Part shown: piece after piece, positions 2,677-6,948 of the stretch
How the letters are laid out: every line of letters begins with the position of its first letter
How positions within the stretch are numbered: position 1 is the first letter of the stretch
Source: Azonexaceae bacterium
Lineage (GTDB): Bacteria; Pseudomonadota; Gammaproteobacteria; Burkholderiales; Rhodocyclaceae
NCBI GenBank assembly: GCA_009469685.1
Contig: SSTA01000011.1
Span: 1 to 6,948, forward strand
Length of the DNA: 6,948 bases
Reading direction: 5' to 3'
Notes under the pieces: generated by a model
Database searches by the model: none
Told to the model about the DNA's origin: nothing
Seen by the model: the letters and a program-made list of their open reading frames with translations, nothing else
Made by a program: the position numbers and the translations under genes

Positions 2677-3897
2677 TCATCCTTTCACACACACCACCTG
2701 ACGCAGCGTATGCACGACCTCCACCAGCTCGCGCTGGGCGTGCATGACGGCGTCGATGTCCTTGTAGGCCATCGGGATTTCGTCGATGACTTCGCTGTCC
2801 TTGCGGCATTCCACGTGGGCGGTGGCCCTGATCTGGTCGTCCACGGTGTAACGGCGCTTGGCTTCATTGCGGCTCATGGCGCGGCCCGCGCCGTGGCTGC
2901 AGGAACAGAAGGATTCTTCGTTACCCAGGCCGCGCACGATATAGCTGCGGGCGCCCATCGACCCGGGAATGATCCCCAGTTCGCCTCTTTTCGCCGACAC
3001 GGCGCCTTTGCGCGTTACCAGAACCTCGCTCCCGAAGTGGCTCTCGCGCTGGACGTAGTTGTGGTGGCAGTTCACCGCTTCCACGTCGGCCGCAAATGGT
3101 TTGGCGATGATCTGCCGGGCGGCGGCGACCACATGGGCCATCATCACGTCGCGATTGCGGCGGGCGTAGTCCTGCGCCCAACCCACGGCTTCGACGTAGT
3201 CGGCAAAGTGGTCGGAACCTTCCTCGAAGTAAGCGAGATCCTTGTCCGGCAGATTGGCGATGTGTTGGCGCATATCGGTCTGGGCCAGCTCGATGAACAG
3301 GTTGCCGATGGCGTTCCCCACCCCGCGCGAGCCGGAATGCAGCATGAACCAGACCTGGTCGGCCTCGTCCAGGCAGACTTCGATGAAGTGGTTACCGGTT
3401 CCCAGGGTCCCCAGATGCTTGTGGTTGTTGGTGTTCTTCAGGCGCGGGTATTTTTCGGTGATGCGCGCAAAGCCCGGCAGCAGCGCCGACCACGTGGCGT
3501 CGACCGTATCCGGCGGATTTTCCCAGGCGCCCTTGTCGCGGCGGCTCTGGCGCGGCGGCGTACGCCCGTGCGGCACTGCAGCCTCGATGGCCGATCGCAG
3601 GCCGTGCAGGTTGTCCGGCAGGTCGGAAGCGCTCAGGGTGGTCCGTGCCGCCATCATCCCGCAGCCGATGTCGACCCCCACGGCTGCCGGGATGATGGCA
3701 CCCTGCGTCGGAATCACGCTACCGATGGTCGATCCCTTACCCAAATGCACGTCCGGCATCACGGCCAGGTGGCGGAAGATGAAGGGCATCTGCGCCGTGT
3801 TCATCAGCTGCTTGCGGGCGTCGTCCTCGACCGGCACGCCTTCTGTCCACAGCTTGATCGGCTTGCCTTGATTCACTTTCTGAGTCTGATAAGTCAT
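2677..3897 (-). CDS. rtcB: RNA-splicing ligase RtcB (3'-phosphate/5'-OH ligase)
   Basis: RtcB joins RNA ends bearing a 3'-phosphate or 2',3'-cyclic phosphate to 5'-OH ends in a GTP- and manganese-dependent reaction through a covalent histidine-GMP intermediate; it repairs cleaved tRNA and other RNAs. The product is 406 residues (E. coli 408) and closely resembles the E. coli enzyme along its whole length. Visible landmarks are VMPDVHLGKGSTIGSV, AAVGVDIGCGM with the metal-binding Cys79, VPHGRT, LGTLGTGNHFIEVCLDE, MLHSGSRGVGN, NCHHNYV, GIIPGSMG and SFCSCSHGAGRAMSR, whose His near 335 is the expected guanylylated residue. The C-terminus LRQVVCVKG is canonical. The ATG at 3897 has AAAGGAAA just upstream and starts at the conserved N-terminus; the longer reading from 4008 adds 37 residues that do not belong to the family. 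No archease gene is visible. Its leader carries a tRNA-like element and a hairpin. Confidence 0.98.
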   Translation of the reverse strand: MTYQTQKVNQGKPIKLWTEGVPVEDDARKQLMNTAQMPFIFRHLAVMPDVHLGKGSTIGSVIPTQGAIIPAAVGVDIGCGMMAARTTLSASDLPDNLHGLRSAIEAAVPHGRTPPRQSRRDKGAWENPPDTVDATWSALLPGFARITEKYPRLKNTNNHKHLGTLGTGNHFIEVCLDEADQVWFMLHSGSRGVGNAIGNLFIELAQTDMRQHIANLPDKDLAYFEEGSDHFADYVEAVGWAQDYARRNRDVMMAHVVAAARQIIAKPFAADVEAVNCHHNYVQRESHFGSEVLVTRKGAVSAKRGELGIIPGSMGARSYIVRGLGNEESFCSCSHGAGRAMSRNEAKRRYTVDDQIRATAHVECRKDSEVIDEIPMAYKDIDAVMHAQRELVEVVHTLRQVVCVKG

Positions 3898-3899
3898 CT

Positions 3900-3945
3900 G
3901 CTTTCCTTTCGGCCTACAGCGCGATGGTAACGGCTGGCGGCCTAT
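3900..3945 (-). other. Stem-loop in the rtcB leader
   Basis: Between the tRNA-like element and rtcB the transcript can form a hairpin with two helices: GGCC pairs with GGCC and, inside a small internal loop, CAGC pairs with GCTG, leaving a 12-base loop CGTTACCATCGC. The 3' arm ends about 10 bases before the rtcB ribosome binding site AAAGGAAA. It could influence rtcB translation or be a processing site. There is no run of T after it, so it is not an intrinsic terminator. Confidence 0.3.
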
Positions 3946-3961: not shown

Positions 3962-4016
3962 CGGTGGGCATGGCGGGACTCGAACCGGCTTGAGCTGCCA
4001 CCGGGCATTGCTCCGG
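3962..4016 (-). ncRNA. tRNA-like 3' end (T-arm plus acceptor strand) before rtcB
   Basis: On the operon strand this element contains a tRNA T-arm, GCCGG-TTCGAGT-CCCGC (one internal C-C mismatch), followed by a 7-base acceptor-like strand CATGCCC and then ACCG, close to the A-CCA end of a tRNA. Before the T-arm is a compact hairpin: GAGC pairs with GCTC, and inside it TGCC pairs with GGCA around a CGGT loop, like the long variable arm of a class II tRNA. I could not find a 5' acceptor strand, a D-arm or an anticodon arm, so it is a truncated tRNA mimic and not a tRNA gene. It sits 65 bases before the rtcB start. It shares the TGCCYGGTGGC hairpin and the general order of parts with the element at 6146-6208. 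Confidence 0.6.
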
Positions 4017-4030
4017 CGTGCAGGGAAGCT

Positions 4031-4180: not shown

Positions 4181-4603
4181 TCAATACCCATGGGTCGGAG
4201 CGGCCCGCCGGGCTTGTTTTCTGGACAAGCCGGCTTGCGACACTTGCCGGGCCATTTCCTTGCGCTGGCGCTCACGTTGGCGGCAGGGCCGGCAACGTTT
4301 GGCGACGGCGTATTGCGAACCGCCAAGGGTTTCGTACCACCAGCGCTGTTGCTCGGCTGTCCATACGCACTCGGCTCCGCAGTCGCAACAAGAGAATGCC
4401 CGGTCGACGTAGTAACCCCGTTGGGCAAACTCGCTCAGGCCGTAGCTGTTGCTGGCCATCAGTTTGTTGTAATCCACTCGCACCACCGGGCCGATCGGGA
4501 CAAGCGCCATCATGGCGCAGCGTTTTCGCGCTTCCAGACGGCGTACCCGGCGCGCCGATTTGATTTCCGCACGCCGTTGTTTTCCGCTTCTGTAACCTTC
4601 CAT
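4181..4603 (-). CDS. Small zinc-ribbon protein of the RNA repair operon
   Basis: This 140-residue protein has a very basic N-terminus (SGKQRRAEIKSARRVRRLEA) of the kind found in nucleic-acid-binding proteins. A zinc-ribbon follows: C72-C-D-C75 in FSCCDCGAECVWTAEQQRWW and C104-R-P-C107 in AKRCRPCRQ. The spacing, the VWTAEQ segment and the RCxxCR knuckle match the family called 'probable zinc-ribbon domain' (zf-trcl). A third, basic section ends at PTHGY. Function is not established; RNA or ribonucleoprotein binding is an inference from the charge and the zinc knuckles. The ATG at 4603 is chosen because AAGGAG stands 8 bases upstream; a TTG at 4651 would add 16 residues without support. It lies 55 bases after the slipin gene, and 283 bases containing a tRNA-like element separate it from rtcB. 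The frame remains open beyond the stop. Confidence 0.8.
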   Translation of the reverse strand: MEGYRSGKQRRAEIKSARRVRRLEARKRCAMMALVPIGPVVRVDYNKLMASNSYGLSEFAQRGYYVDRAFSCCDCGAECVWTAEQQRWWYETLGGSQYAVAKRCRPCRQRERQRKEMARQVSQAGLSRKQARRAAPTHGY

Positions 4604-4658
4604 GCCACGTTCTCCTTCATGCGCGTTGCCCGCAGCAGCGGGAGTTTCCAACCCATCC

Positions 4659-5795
4659 TCACTTCGCCAGGGTCACCAGACCGTTCAATACCTGATCGAG
4701 ACCGCCGAATACCGAGATCCGGTCGATACGTTCGGCTACCCGTTCCAGGGTTTCCAATTCCTTCAAACGCAGGGCGACCGGGCTGTCTTCCATGACCTTG
4801 GCGGTGTTGAGCAGCGAACGGGTCGCCGCCGTTTCCTCGCGGCGCCGGATCACGTTGGCTTCTGCCGCCTTTCCGGCTTCCACCACCTGCGCCAGGATGG
4901 TCTTCATCTCGCCCGGCAGCACGATGTCCTTGACGCCGACACCGCCGATTTCCAGGCCGAAGCCGGCCAGTTTTCTGGCGACATGCGCGCCGACGACTTC
5001 GTCGATCAACTGCTTGTTTTCGAGCAGTTCGTCGAGGTTGCGCGTCCCCACCGCCGCCCGCAGGCCGAATTGCAGCTCGCGATAGAGGTGTTCGGCCGGC
5101 TTGGCCAGCTTGGCGAAGGCCGTGCTCGCGTCGTCGAAACGCCAGGTAGCGGCGAGGTTGAGGCGCAGCCCCACCTTGTCGCGGGTGAGGATTTCCTGGC
5201 CGGTCACTTCCATGCTCTGCCAGCGCATATCGACCAGCTCGACCTGCAGGTCCCGGTTGAATCGCCAATAGGCGGTCACCCCCGGCGACAGCAATGGCTG
5301 TTGCACGCCGTCGATACGCAGCAGGCCCACATGCGCCGCCGGTACCTGCACAACGAGAACGCCATTCAGTCCCAACACCGGGCGACCGCGCAACGACGGT
5401 TGCAACTGGCGTTGCACCATCTCCATGGGCAGGGCGGCGGCCGCGCGCAGATCGAGTTTTTCCAGGCGCTGCACGACCATTCCGCGCCAGAAGAAGCGGC
5501 GAGTTGCCGGCGGCAATACCTCGACCAGGACATCGTTTTCATAGCGCAGCCCGACTTCGTCCTCGTTGAGTTCCATACAGACGAAATAACGCTCGGCCTC
5601 AGCCGGCTCGTTCTGGCGCAGGTAATCGACGAGGTCGATATCGAGCATCGGCGCATCGGTGTGCCACAGGGTCAATGACAGCTCATTGAACGGATCGAAA
5701 AAGTAGTGGCGACCCGGATTGAGAATGCGCTGGAAATCGCCATTGCGCAGCAGGGCGGCCCGTTCGTTCTTTTTCACGATAAAACGCTTCAACAT
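4659..5795 (-). CDS. Slipin / band-7 (SPFH) family protein
   Basis: This 378-residue protein belongs to the stomatin/slipin/HflC superfamily, which forms oligomeric scaffolds on membranes. The SPFH core is at roughly residues 140-300, with typical slipin features: SMEVTGQEILTRDKVGLRLN, the LYRELQFGLRAAVGTRNLDE segment, and GLEIGGVGVKDIVLPGEMK, followed by an Ala/Glu/Arg-rich coiled coil (AEANVIRRREETAATRS). Unlike most slipins it has no clear N-terminal transmembrane helix, and it carries about 130 extra N-terminal residues. In that part the motif of a beta-hairpin before the core (LLRxGxxQxxLxPG) occurs three times, at about residues 11, 79 and 155. The ATG at 5795 has GAAGGAG 6 bases upstream; a GTG at 5819 adds only eight residues. 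Slipins are recurrent neighbours of RtcB. Here it is the first well-supported protein gene after the sigma54 promoter, suggesting that repair may be organised on a scaffold or the membrane. Confidence 0.92.
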   Translation of the reverse strand: MLKRFIVKKNERAALLRNGDFQRILNPGRHYFFDPFNELSLTLWHTDAPMLDIDLVDYLRQNEPAEAERYFVCMELNEDEVGLRYENDVLVEVLPPATRRFFWRGMVVQRLEKLDLRAAAALPMEMVQRQLQPSLRGRPVLGLNGVLVVQVPAAHVGLLRIDGVQQPLLSPGVTAYWRFNRDLQVELVDMRWQSMEVTGQEILTRDKVGLRLNLAATWRFDDASTAFAKLAKPAEHLYRELQFGLRAAVGTRNLDELLENKQLIDEVVGAHVARKLAGFGLEIGGVGVKDIVLPGEMKTILAQVVEAGKAAEANVIRRREETAATRSLLNTAKVMEDSPVALRLKELETLERVAERIDRISVFGGLDQVLNGLVTLAK

Positions 5796-5815: not shown

Positions 5816-5980
5816 TCACAATTCGTCACCTGGCTTGCCGGCGCACGCCGGTCCGGCGGGCGCTCCGGTCGGCTCCTGCGGGGGAGCGCCCGGAGCGGGC
5901 GGACGAGGCTGGCAGCGGCCCAGGCAATAGCGCCCAAGCCACGCGGCCCCTGCCGCCCGGCACCGGATGCCCTGCCGCAT
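5816..5980 (-). CDS. Possible small protein, proline-rich tail, upstream of the slipin gene
   Basis: A 54-codon frame runs from an ATG at 5980 to a TGA that sits just before the slipin ribosome site. The product begins MRQGIRCRAAGAAWLGRYCL and has a Pro-rich tail (RPPAPGAPPQEPTGAPAGPA) ending in GKPGDEL, with four Cys at residues 7, 19, 23 and 46. The frame is open further upstream but has no earlier start. Evidence against it is that all three minus-strand frames are open here, as often happens in GC-rich DNA, third-position GC does not separate them, and no ribosome site precedes the ATG. The placement of its stop and the protein-like composition are the only support. I do not recognise a family. 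Confidence 0.3.
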   Translation of the reverse strand: MRQGIRCRAAGAAWLGRYCLGRCQPRPPAPGAPPQEPTGAPAGPACAGKPGDEL

Positions 5981-6055
5981 GAGCGGACCGAAGCGTCGGG
6001 CCGGACCGGTGGCGGGTGCTTGCGCATACCGCAGCCGGCGGGTACTGCAATAAGC

Positions 6056-6074
6056 ACTGTCGTAACAGGACAGT
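6056..6074 (-). ncRNA. Isolated anticodon-arm-like hairpin (GUU loop)
   Basis: On the operon strand, ACTGTC and GACAGT form a perfect 6-bp stem around the 7-base loop CTGTTAC. This is the size and pattern of a tRNA anticodon loop: C32, U33, then GUU at 34-36, the anticodon of tRNA-Asn, then A37. It starts at the discriminator-like A of the preceding tRNA-like element. No U-tract follows, so it is not a terminator. It may imitate an anticodon arm for a nuclease or repair enzyme; this is an inference from shape alone. Confidence 0.45.
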
Positions 6075-6147
6075 TTCCGGAGCGGGATTCGAACCCGCGT
6101 CAGACTGTTGATGAGACGGTTGCTCTACCCGACTGAGCTATCCAGTG
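6074..6147 (-). tRNA. tRNA-like element with CAU anticodon, degenerate acceptor stem
   Basis: The minus strand folds as a near-complete tRNA of about 73 bases. It has TA at positions 8-9, a D-arm GCTC-AGTCGGGTA-GAGC with the invariant GG, an anticodon arm ACCGT-CTCATCA-ACAGT (4 of 5 pairs) with U33 and anticodon CAU at 6113-6111, a 5-base variable loop, and a perfect T-arm GCGGG-TTCGAAT-CCCGC. The acceptor stem CACTGGA/TCCGGAA pairs in only 5 of 7 positions, including one G-U, with the terminal two open. The 3' end is A-CTG, not CCA, and position 37 is C instead of the near-universal purine. Its 5' CA overlaps the CCA of the previous tRNA-like element. A tRNA finder may report tRNA-Met/Ile(CAU), but the open acceptor end and C37 make ordinary decoding doubtful. 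It lies inside the leader of the sigma54-driven RNA repair operon. Confidence 0.7.
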
Positions 6148-6208
6148 GCGGGATGACCGGGAATCGAACCCGAGCGAGCCACCAGGCACCCCAATATCGC
6201 TTTCCCGC
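6146..6208 (-). ncRNA. Truncated tRNA-like element with T-arm and GCCA end
   Basis: This 63-base element ends as a real tRNA does: T-arm TCGGG-TTCGATT-CCCGG, acceptor strand TCATCCC, then G-CCA. Six bases at its 5' end, GCGGGA, pair with TCCCGC in the 3' end and close the element. Between them, GCGA pairs with TCGC around an inner GCC-TGGT-GGC hairpin resembling a class II (Leu/Ser/Sec) variable arm. There is no D-arm and no anticodon arm. The next tRNA-like element begins without a gap. Its 3' part repeats the sequence found 75 bases upstream at 6222-6235. Confidence 0.6.
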
Positions 6209-6235
6209 GACGGCGGCATACGGCGGAATGACCGG
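6147..6235. repeat. Direct repeat of a tRNA 3'-end sequence, 75-bp period
   Basis: GGCGGGATGACCGG at 6147-6160 and GGCGGAATGACCGG at 6222-6235 (plus strand) are identical in 13 of 14 positions and exactly 75 bp apart, the length of one tRNA. Each is the end of a T-stem and acceptor strand on the operon strand. They suggest duplication of a tRNA-like unit followed by decay or divergence. Confidence 0.6.
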
Positions 6236-6254
6236 AATACTCCTGATTCCACCG
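6221..6254 (-). ncRNA. Minihelix-like long hairpin at the start of the operon leader
   Basis: CGGTGGAAT pairs with ATTCCGCCG (nine pairs, one G-U). The helix continues past one C-C mismatch with A-T, and then with GGA/TCC over a two-base bulge to a GTAT loop. Its 3' strand, TCATTCCGCC, is the same acceptor-like sequence as in the element at 6146-6208, so the hairpin may be a tRNA acceptor minihelix. With the sigma54 promoter placed where it is, it would be within the first 100 nucleotides of the transcript. Confidence 0.5.
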
Positions 6255-6261
6255 CACCGGC

Positions 6262-6275
6262 GGGGTCGCAACCCC
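6262..6275 (-). other. T-arm-like GC hairpin in the leader
   Basis: GGGG-TTGCGA-CCCC is a short, strong hairpin whose loop resembles a T-loop (TTCGA-N-T) with a rearranged centre. It lies at about nucleotide 35-45 of the predicted transcript, before the minihelix. It is either a decayed T-arm or an independent stem. Confidence 0.35.
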
Positions 6276-6317
6276 TAGCCCGTCGGCCTTGCCGCAAGTC
6301 GGCGATGACTCTCCTAT

Positions 6318-6333
6318 TGCGAGAGGCGTGCCA
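6318..6333 (-). promoter_or_regulatory. Sigma54 (-24/-12) promoter of the RNA repair operon
   Basis: On the minus strand TGGCAC-GCCTC-TCGCA matches the sigma54 consensus TGGCAC-N5-TTGCA in 10 of 11 defined positions, with the obligatory GG and GC exactly 10 bases apart. Transcription should start about 12 bases past the GC, near 6308, so the tRNA-like elements fall in the 5' leader. Sigma54 dependence agrees with the divergent rtcR gene, whose family activates sigma54 promoters of rtc operons. Confidence 0.8.
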
Positions 6334-6516: not shown

Positions 6517-6948
6517 ATGAAAAAAACCGTCGTCATCGGCTTTCTCGGTACCCAACTTGACTACGCGGGCAAAGGCAGCGCGCGCTGGGACAAATGGCGG
6601 CCGACGGTAGCCCTCTGCCAGCAGGAAGATCTGGTCGTGCATCGGCTGGAGCTGATCCACGACGCCCGCAGTCGAGGGCTAGCCGAACGCGTCGGCAACG
6701 ACATTGGCCGCATATCGCCGGAAACCGAAGTCCGGCGGGTGGAAATGGAATTGCGCGACCCTTGGGATTTCGAAGAGGTCTACACCGCCCTGCACGACCT
6801 CGCCCGCGGCTACCCCTTCGAGACGGAAAACGAGGATTACCTCATCCATATCACCACCGGTACGCACGTTGCGCAGATCTGCTGGTTTCTGCTCGCGGAG
6901 GCGCGATACCTGCCGGCCCGTCTGTTGCAGACTTCGCCGCCGCGCAAG
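6517..6948 (+). CDS. rtcR: Sigma54-dependent activator RtcR, N-terminal part (cut by window edge)
   Basis: RtcR is the transcription activator of rtc RNA repair operons, with an N-terminal sensor domain, a AAA+ sigma54-activating ATPase and a C-terminal DNA-binding helix-turn-helix; full length is usually near 530 residues. Only the first 144 residues are in the window, and they are the sensor domain. They closely follow the E. coli protein: MKKTVVIGFLGTQLDYAGKG, RWDKWRPTVALCQQEDL, RLELIHDARSRGLAE, DPWDFEEVYTALHD, YLIHITTGTHVAQICWFLL, LPARLLQTSPPRK. This domain is CARF-like (Rossmann fold) and is thought to respond to RNA ends carrying 2',3'-cyclic phosphate. The start is the ATG at 6517, with GAGGA 11 bases upstream; an ATG at 6512 stops after two codons. 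It diverges from the operon, with the shared control region between them. The ATPase and helix-turn-helix are outside the window, so intactness cannot be judged. Confidence 0.96.
   Translation, partial: MKKTVVIGFLGTQLDYAGKGSARWDKWRPTVALCQQEDLVVHRLELIHDARSRGLAERVGNDIGRISPETEVRRVEMELRDPWDFEEVYTALHDLARGYPFETENEDYLIHITTGTHVAQICWFLLAEARYLPARLLQTSPPRK

Follow-up and report, generated by a model that had tools for sequence, protein, structure and literature searches.

A predicted leader RNA with tandem tRNA-like domains accompanies slipin in bacterial RNA repair operons

The DNA analysed here (positions 1 to 6,948 of contig SSTA01000011.1, assembly GCA_009469685.1; hereafter the window, 6,948 nt) comes from an Azonexaceae bacterium and contains an RNA repair operon whose leader appears to encode a structured RNA of approximately 470 nt with two tRNA-like domains, TLS1 and TLS2. 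On the minus strand, the operon comprises the genes for a slipin of the SPFH/Band_7 type (4659-5795; Pfam Band_7), to which the leader RNA is tied, a small treble-clef zinc-finger open reading frame (ORF) of the zf_Tbcl type (4181-4619; PF13451), the RNA ligase RtcB (2677-3903; Pfam RtcB), the nucleotidyltransferase RlaP (1843-2673; Pfam RlaP) and the RNA 3'-phosphate cyclase RtcA (812-1846; Pfam RTC). The N-terminal part of the sigma54 activator RtcR is encoded divergently on the plus strand (6517-6948; Pfam RtcR). An RtcR/sigma54-type repair operon with slipin, RtcB, a nucleotidyltransferase and RtcA had been recognized in a preliminary description made from the letters alone, and Pfam confirmed this assignment; the divergent rtcR, a sigma54 promoter found by motif scan and the presence of both rtcB and rtcA are those of an RtcR-regulated operon, the regulation being predicted. 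The closest named relatives of the slipin, among the best 120 listed, belong to Azonexus, Dechloromonas and Accumulibacter.

The sigma54 −24/−12 promoter (TGGCACG-N4-TCGCA, one mismatch) lies at 6318-6333 on the minus strand, directly upstream of the tRNA-like array, as the preliminary description had predicted. Given the spacing between sigma54 sites and their start sites, we infer from the sequence that the leader is transcribed and that its transcript begins near 6307. For comparison, an alignment of 23 slipin sequences served as search anchor in genome records, and the best 80 of 189 loci were retained (designated by L numbers). In 51 of the 80, a neighbouring rtcR is transcribed divergently, which together with the window gives 52 RtcR-linked leaders. 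The promoter is kept in all 52, with one mismatch in the best match of 43 and two mismatches in that of nine, while in the reversed leaders, used as a control, the match never fell below two mismatches and reached exactly two in 2/52. In each of these leaders the 5' module of the RNA, its length set to 82 for this computation, follows the promoter at approximately 15-26 nt (median 21), and it should thus begin near the first base of the transcript.

From approximately 6307 to 5837 on the minus strand, the leader RNA is made up of a 5' double hairpin, TLS1, TLS2, a further hairpin and a long-range-paired 3' domain that precedes slipin. All four tRNA-like pieces of the preliminary description were recovered on this strand, abutting one another, although the extent proposed for them (6056-6300) proved too short, as the consensus fold runs on to about 5837. 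What had been read as an acceptor-like minihelix is a structure indeed present, corresponding to the double hairpin at 6206-6296 (the 5' module), which is delimited by covariation. A covariance model of this module (R1), built from the window plus 42 loci, matches the window at 6213-6294 with 74.9 bits, the window being one of its training sequences. A single match was obtained in the window and likewise in each of 77/80 slipin loci; the three loci missed (L007, L010 and L049) lie on stretches that end too near upstream. The whole genomes of eight such loci likewise gave one match each. When R1 was run over 321 genomes of the class, the genome at the centre of the search was the sole match, with at most 14 candidates scored per genome, and no prevalence is drawn from that count. 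Directly 3' of TLS2 stands a hairpin (6057-6073, fold z −3.19) that forms a helix of the consensus and whose loops differ between the aligned groups; judged by eye, not computed, no shared anti-Shine-Dalgarno loop is evident after TLS2. It is followed by a conserved GCAGTACCCGCCGG element (6035-6048), seen in the alignments of three groups and in the RtcR-group consensus, and by the 3' domain (5837-6039), which in the consensus fold projected on the window closes through pairing of 6039-6034 with 5842-5837. This domain, into which several of the top-ranked covarying pairs fall, ends approximately 40 nt before the slipin start codon, ahead of its ribosome-binding site. The motif GGTTCGAWTCC (at most one mismatch) occurs three times in the window, twice inside the array, against 0.32 expected, and one of 200 shuffles reached three.

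The preliminary description had staked the array partly on conservation and covariation among the leaders of homologous loci, and on this computational half the alignments bear it out, in that the folds are conserved and their base pairs covary. For the 5' module (24 pairs in 43 sequences, i.e. the window and 42 loci out of 57 rows, L012 and L077 having failed the end pattern), 92.7% of the cells are paired and 19 pairs have changed on both sides, giving 167 both-side-change cells against 47 ± 7 in shuffles, none of 500 of which reached that number; with slid partners, pairing is found in 38-53%. For TLS2 (48 sequences, i.e. the window and 47 loci out of 59 rows), the corresponding values are 95.6% paired and 118 both-side cells against 34 ± 5, with none of 500 shuffles as high and slid partners pairing in 33-47%. 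The third acceptor pair from the inside, for example, is G-C in 32/48 and C-G in 14/48, and the anticodon arm is hypervariable yet stays paired. It should be noted that shuffles leave relatedness in and that the consensus fold was derived from the same alignments; the cloverleaf, known beforehand, is therefore the cleaner test. Under a custom-made null that permutes along the tree and is stricter than the shuffles, five pairs reached E<0.05 in a pooled set of 67 sequences, every one of them part of a helix (5' module, T-stem of TLS1 and anticodon stem of TLS2), and three did so in 25 RtcR-less sequences. When more than 100,000 column pairs were ranked, 17 of the top 20 fell within the consensus fold for the RtcR-linked leaders and 16 for the RtcR-less ones. 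Near-identical sequences had been dropped before alignment and folding, at thresholds of 88 to 96% depending on the run, and L049, at a contig end, was left out of the full alignments.

TLS2 (6077-6145), delimited by ARAGORN, Rfam and covariation, consists of an acceptor (6145-6141/6081-6077), a D-arm, a hypervariable anticodon arm (CAT at 6113-6111) and a T-arm. ARAGORN reports a tRNA-Met(cat) at 6147-6073, and the Rfam scan proposed in the preliminary description gives the tRNA family (RF00005) 44.3 bits, above its cut-off of 29; the near-complete tRNA fold described earlier is thereby confirmed, whereas its CAU triplet is incidental, since the anticodon is not conserved among loci, and was rejected as a functional clue. 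TLS2 is present upstream of slipin in 79/81 loci (the 80 and the window), the two misses having only 25 and 319 nt upstream. Among the 52 RtcR-linked leaders, 48 contain two strict T-arm motifs, and in 40 ARAGORN finds a tRNA, with many different anticodons. Across the 79 loci the elbow is kept almost without exception (full T-stem in 79, full D-stem in 77, T-loop in 79 and D-loop GG in 79), and pairing of the acceptor rises from its outer to its inner positions (0.20, 0.46, 0.63, 0.94, 0.94, 0.95 and 0.95). Instead of seven base pairs and a CCA end, TLS2 has an acceptor of 4-5 bp, followed by CCA in 16/79. Nor is there a conserved 7-nt anticodon loop: by a custom parsing script, the loop measures 7 nt in 38/79, with 15 different triplets and with U33 in 28; a tetraloop takes its place in 22, of GNRA or UNCG type in 21 of these, and 19 have loops of other sizes. 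By these features TLS2 does not look like a working tRNA, as the elbow is kept and the decoding end is not. ARAGORN and Rfam do score TLS2 as a tRNA, and RtcR-less relatives have tRNA gene banks upstream, as would suit decayed or ordinary tRNA genes left from such a bank; however, the covarying shortened acceptor, the tetraloops and a place and spacing fixed across Rhodocyclales, Burkholderia and Pseudomonas render this origin highly improbable. The preliminary description had also considered a decoy for a tRNA-cleaving nuclease, which would lower damage during repair. A hypervariable but paired anticodon arm would fit an arms race, and Hughes et al. suggested that YrlA inhibits the anticodon nuclease competitively (PMC7790460). 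The idea is nevertheless weakened by the 22 of 79 TLS2 that carry a tetraloop without an anticodon, and one or two copies per transcript would offer little bait, which leaves a decoy unlikely.

The truncated T-arm/GCCA element noted earlier corresponds to TLS1 (6146-6192), known from the sequence and from the group alignments, which does carry a T-arm followed by G-CCA but also has a short arm and a seven-position acceptor stem, 6/7 paired in the window (6192-6186/6156-6150). The domain is without a D-arm in the window, as in many other loci, while most Pseudomonas relatives have a full cloverleaf. Six or seven of the seven acceptor positions are paired in 75/77 loci; exchanging strands between loci lowers this number to 37.8 ± 3.7 (maximum 50). 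The acceptor helix appears in the consensus fold of the RtcR-less group and not in that of the RtcR group, and when the consensus is projected on the window, the TLS1 T-arm is shown and its acceptor strand is paired elsewhere. At the junction of TLS1 with TLS2, 62/79 loci have a CCA triplet, and N-CCA occupies the exact position after TLS1 in 27/77; together with the T-arm and the portion of acceptor retained throughout, these triplets are what one would expect if the tRNA-like domains were RNase P or RNase Z sites at which the operon transcript is cut and its ends protected. An acceptor of 4-5 bp should, however, make a poor substrate, and such processing leaves the conserved 5' module, the 3' domain and the need for two domains unexplained, so that we consider this role improbable.

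The array follows slipin, not RtcR. RtcR was not detected in 29/80 slipin loci, 27 of which (all but L007 and L010) carry TLS2. Two of the 27 are too short for a judgement, namely L049 and L005, the latter of which shows a sigma54 site and is thus probably RtcR-linked. Among the RtcR-less leaders listed, the 5' module and both tRNA-like domains are shared, accompanied by a conserved 3' domain of their own. RtcR operons were in turn sampled around array-carrying genomes by class, phylum and two order searches (9/115, 13/321, 28/398 and 11/145), the sets overlapping one another and possibly also, in species, the 80 loci. In this sample, a tRNA-like T-arm was present in the leader of 9/9 slipin-first operons, eight of them with two or more, compared with any tRNA-like motif in 2/31 of the others (Fisher p = 2e-7, kinship uncorrected). 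Six of the nine have an ARAGORN call; L123, L126 and L127 count by the T-arm motif, in L126 a single one. The two others are 1/20 rtcB-first operons (L130) and 1/11 rsr-first operons (L102, assigned by reading its translation), the latter by a YrlA-like match. The L130 hit is apparently a true tRNA-Pro (65 bits) between rtcR and rtcB. Left out of the comparison were the centre genomes L092 and L101, L100 (26 nt upstream), L112, L113 and L138 (weak or no RtcR), and L097, L109 and L140 (first gene unrecognized, no T-arm); T-arm matches inside the first gene of L117 and L133 were not counted as leader.

In the slipin-first sample, R1 recognized the 5' module in L116, L119, L123, L126 and L127 and weakly in L106 (E 0.24), but not in L094, L096 and L099, in which the tRNA-like part is kept and the 5' module would have diverged or be missing. 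In L106, three tRNA-like domains follow one another in the leader that separates the sigma54 promoter from a remote slipin, and YrlA matches below threshold (34 bits) across a domain junction. Searches of two families with R1 alone matched 2/41 and 3/40 genomes, centres included; slipin lies directly downstream in 3/3 of the genomes newly found, one with RtcR and two with an HNH gene and tRNAs. In four of 79 loci (L023, L042, L043 and L069) the RNA and slipin are present and rtcB was undetected in the 6 kb downstream of slipin. In one E. coli strain, the 188 nt between rtcR and rtcB contain none of the array. The preliminary description had further proposed a sensor whose cleavage products activate RtcR. 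The presence of the array in the 27 slipin loci without RtcR in view, and the lack of a tRNA-like motif in 29/31 rtcB- or rsr-first RtcR operons and in the E. coli leader, speak against it, and a sensor feeding only RtcR is very unlikely; the distribution fits an RNA whose service or control is directed at slipin's share of the system and not at RtcR.

The RtcR-less relatives have a setting of their own. An HNH ORF as in L055 (PF14279 in L055 and L045) ends upstream in 23/27 RtcR-less TLS2 loci compared with 0/52 RtcR loci, and at least three tRNA genes, up to 17, lie further upstream in 11 of the 27. Loci such as L035, L037, L045, L055 and L068, mostly from Burkholderiales, in which tRNA banks and the HNH gene precede the same leader RNA, resemble the Anabaena trn regulon and mycobacterial tRNA arrays. 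A search of plasmid DNA with an RtcR-less leader gave short matches over TLS1/TLS2 in 30 records; in the Vibrio vulnificus region, the only plasmid match opened, three genes are listed, none of them slipin or rtc.

Further down the operon, a candidate third tRNA-like 3' half, a T-arm with an ACC-like end, precedes rtcB (3962-4030, minus strand). A T-arm motif occurs in the slipin-rtcB gap in 7/75 loci having such a gap, window included, and the T-arm before rtcB ends in ACCA in six relatives. In the same position L001 gave only a tmRNA T-arm match, of 11.7 bits and below the Rfam cut-off; a DnaX match there (E 0.05) and an AS-pc02 match inside slipin (E 0.14), both below cut-off, were set aside as chance. 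The zf_Tbcl ORF, which also sits between slipin and rtcB, was matched among the 80 slipin loci only in L002, L003 and L005.

No known RNA family accounts for the leader as a whole. With Rfam 15, the window matched only tRNA, YrlA and AS-pc02 at E<=1, and no family covered the whole leader; in 11 relatives, 27/27 matches at cut-off were tRNA, and in 12 further loci, the matches at E<=0.05 other than tRNA were limited to YrlA and one plastid family, both below threshold. The closest likeness is to YrlA (RF02553), itself a tRNA-mimic RNA of an RtcR-controlled RNA repair operon that retains D- and T-arms. YrlA carries its tRNA-like domain in an rsr-yrlBA-rtcBA operon (PMC7790460), and a review assigns PNPase binding to this domain and Rsr binding to the stem (PMC8394870). 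In the window, however, YrlA scores 23.9 bits (E 0.12) against a cut-off of 69, a weak match that arises because the T-arm of TLS1 is followed by the D-arm of TLS2; the match before rsr in L102, a sister case, reaches 37.9 bits and is below the cut-off as well. The leader further differs from YrlA in that its partner gene is slipin and in that approximately 470 nt hold two tRNA-like domains and others, compared with a model of 114 positions, and neither the window nor any of the 80 slipin loci matched an rsr (Ro60/TROVE) query that finds 10 loci of the RtcR sample. GOLLD and ROOL are likewise large structured RNAs near tRNA banks, and an HNH gene is found in the RtcR-less loci; here, in contrast, the RNA has its own tRNA-like domains and adjoins slipin, mostly with rtcB too, and slipin is unmatched in phage records. 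No Rfam model of GOLLD, ROOL or OLE matched the window at E<=1 or the 11 relatives at cut-off. With tmRNA and with T-box or thrS-type mimics the leader shares the reuse of a tRNA-like fold within a longer RNA, but these too had no Rfam match at the same settings; the search for a tag frame was confined to ARAGORN, which called TLS2 a tRNA-Met.

Related associations have been reported elsewhere. In Anabaena, TrcR represses a tRNA bank, slipin (alr0740), rtcB (all3526) and an HNH gene (all8564), which go up jointly when translation is stressed (PMC10272220), a co-induction much like the grouping seen here, although the Anabaena genes are at separate loci and under a repressor. Units of a Mycobacterium avium tRNA array contain a conserved HNH gene (PMC12803027), and GOLLD and ROOL are found near tRNA islands in an article that cites a paper titled on GOLLD in Mycobacterium tRNA arrays (PMC12286853). 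As far as open-licence full texts and the excerpts from them extend, no description of a tRNA-like RNA tied to slipin or rtcB was found, although an earlier mention elsewhere is possible; the leader seems to represent a novel type of RNA that assists in, or controls, the response to damage of the translation apparatus.

We favour, tentatively and at somewhat less than an even chance, the view that the leader RNA is a tRNA mimic induced by stress that acts as partner to the repair system of slipin and RtcB, by analogy with Y RNA and Ro60 (Rsr). The occurrence of a Y RNA with rsr in sister rtc operons suggests a ribonucleoprotein (RNP) partner for the slipin leader, and the YrlA case, the Anabaena co-induction and the M. 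avium HNH gene lead us to prefer such a partner; the main alternative is a leader that acts in cis. Damage would signal via RtcR, the leader RNA would be made first as it opens the transcript from the RtcR/sigma54 promoter, and its elbow modules might dock a tRNA-binding protein, be it a repair enzyme, a nuclease or a modification enzyme, onto an assembly organized by slipin; a separate stable RNA, the partner protein and the mechanism are all things we infer.

In this alternative, a repair protein of the operon that binds tRNA, or RtcB through an action on the leader, would recognize the mimic on the message that encodes it and so set the output of slipin or the operon, and damaged tRNA would titrate the protein away. 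The precedent is the thrS leader, which mimics its tRNA. A review names the thrS operator as a tRNA-like element (PMC8394870). The RNA adjoins slipin on the same strand in 79/79 loci having it and in 3/3 new genomes, and the 3' domain closes approximately 40 nt before the start codon, both as a cis-acting leader would have it. Against this, the handle of the thrS mimic is its anticodon arm, which is the least conserved part of TLS2; moreover, the leader is very large for an operator, and the loops after TLS2 differ by group with no common Shine-Dalgarno-blocking loop apparent by eye, a point that was not computed. Control in cis therefore appears possible but on the whole doubtful.

Several observations weigh against the RNA partner that we prefer. 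The adjacency to slipin, found in every locus read, would be explained equally well by the cis-acting leader. Literature pairing slipin or SPFH with RtcB and related terms gave no RNA-binding role of slipin. A tRNA-like motif precedes rsr in 1/11 rsr-first loci, with an Rfam scan covering six of them as well; Y RNAs may be encoded downstream of rsr, beyond the sequence examined, and the count makes the Y RNA parallel a loose one. For 45 RtcR-linked sequences taken alone, the tree-based null left zero pairs at E<0.05. Finally, in the folding check that the preliminary description had proposed, the last hairpin stood out (z −3.2), while the energies of the leader (z −0.51), TLS2 (−0.49), TLS1 (−0.20) and the 5' module (−1.65) are ordinary; as folding stability is unremarkable, the case for the array rests on comparison.

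More broadly, the leader may represent a new class of large ornate RNA, in which damage-induced, tandem and largely anticodon-free tRNA mimics would form, with a slipin membrane scaffold and RtcB, a tRNA quality-control RNP whose evolution would have paralleled that of Ro60-Y RNA and of the large RNAs found in tRNA arrays, a proposal that we put forward as a possibility with more doubt than confidence. As the junction of the abutting domains has the permuted T-arm/D-arm order of YrlA, Y RNAs may themselves derive from tandem mimics. RNA repair operons contain both slipin and tRNA-like RNAs, and the leader provides a concrete object on which to test why both occur, for which a covariance model and named loci spanning Rhodocyclales to Pseudomonas are available. 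It also ties together the Y RNAs of rtc operons, stress-induced tRNA banks and the large ornate RNAs beside tRNA arrays.
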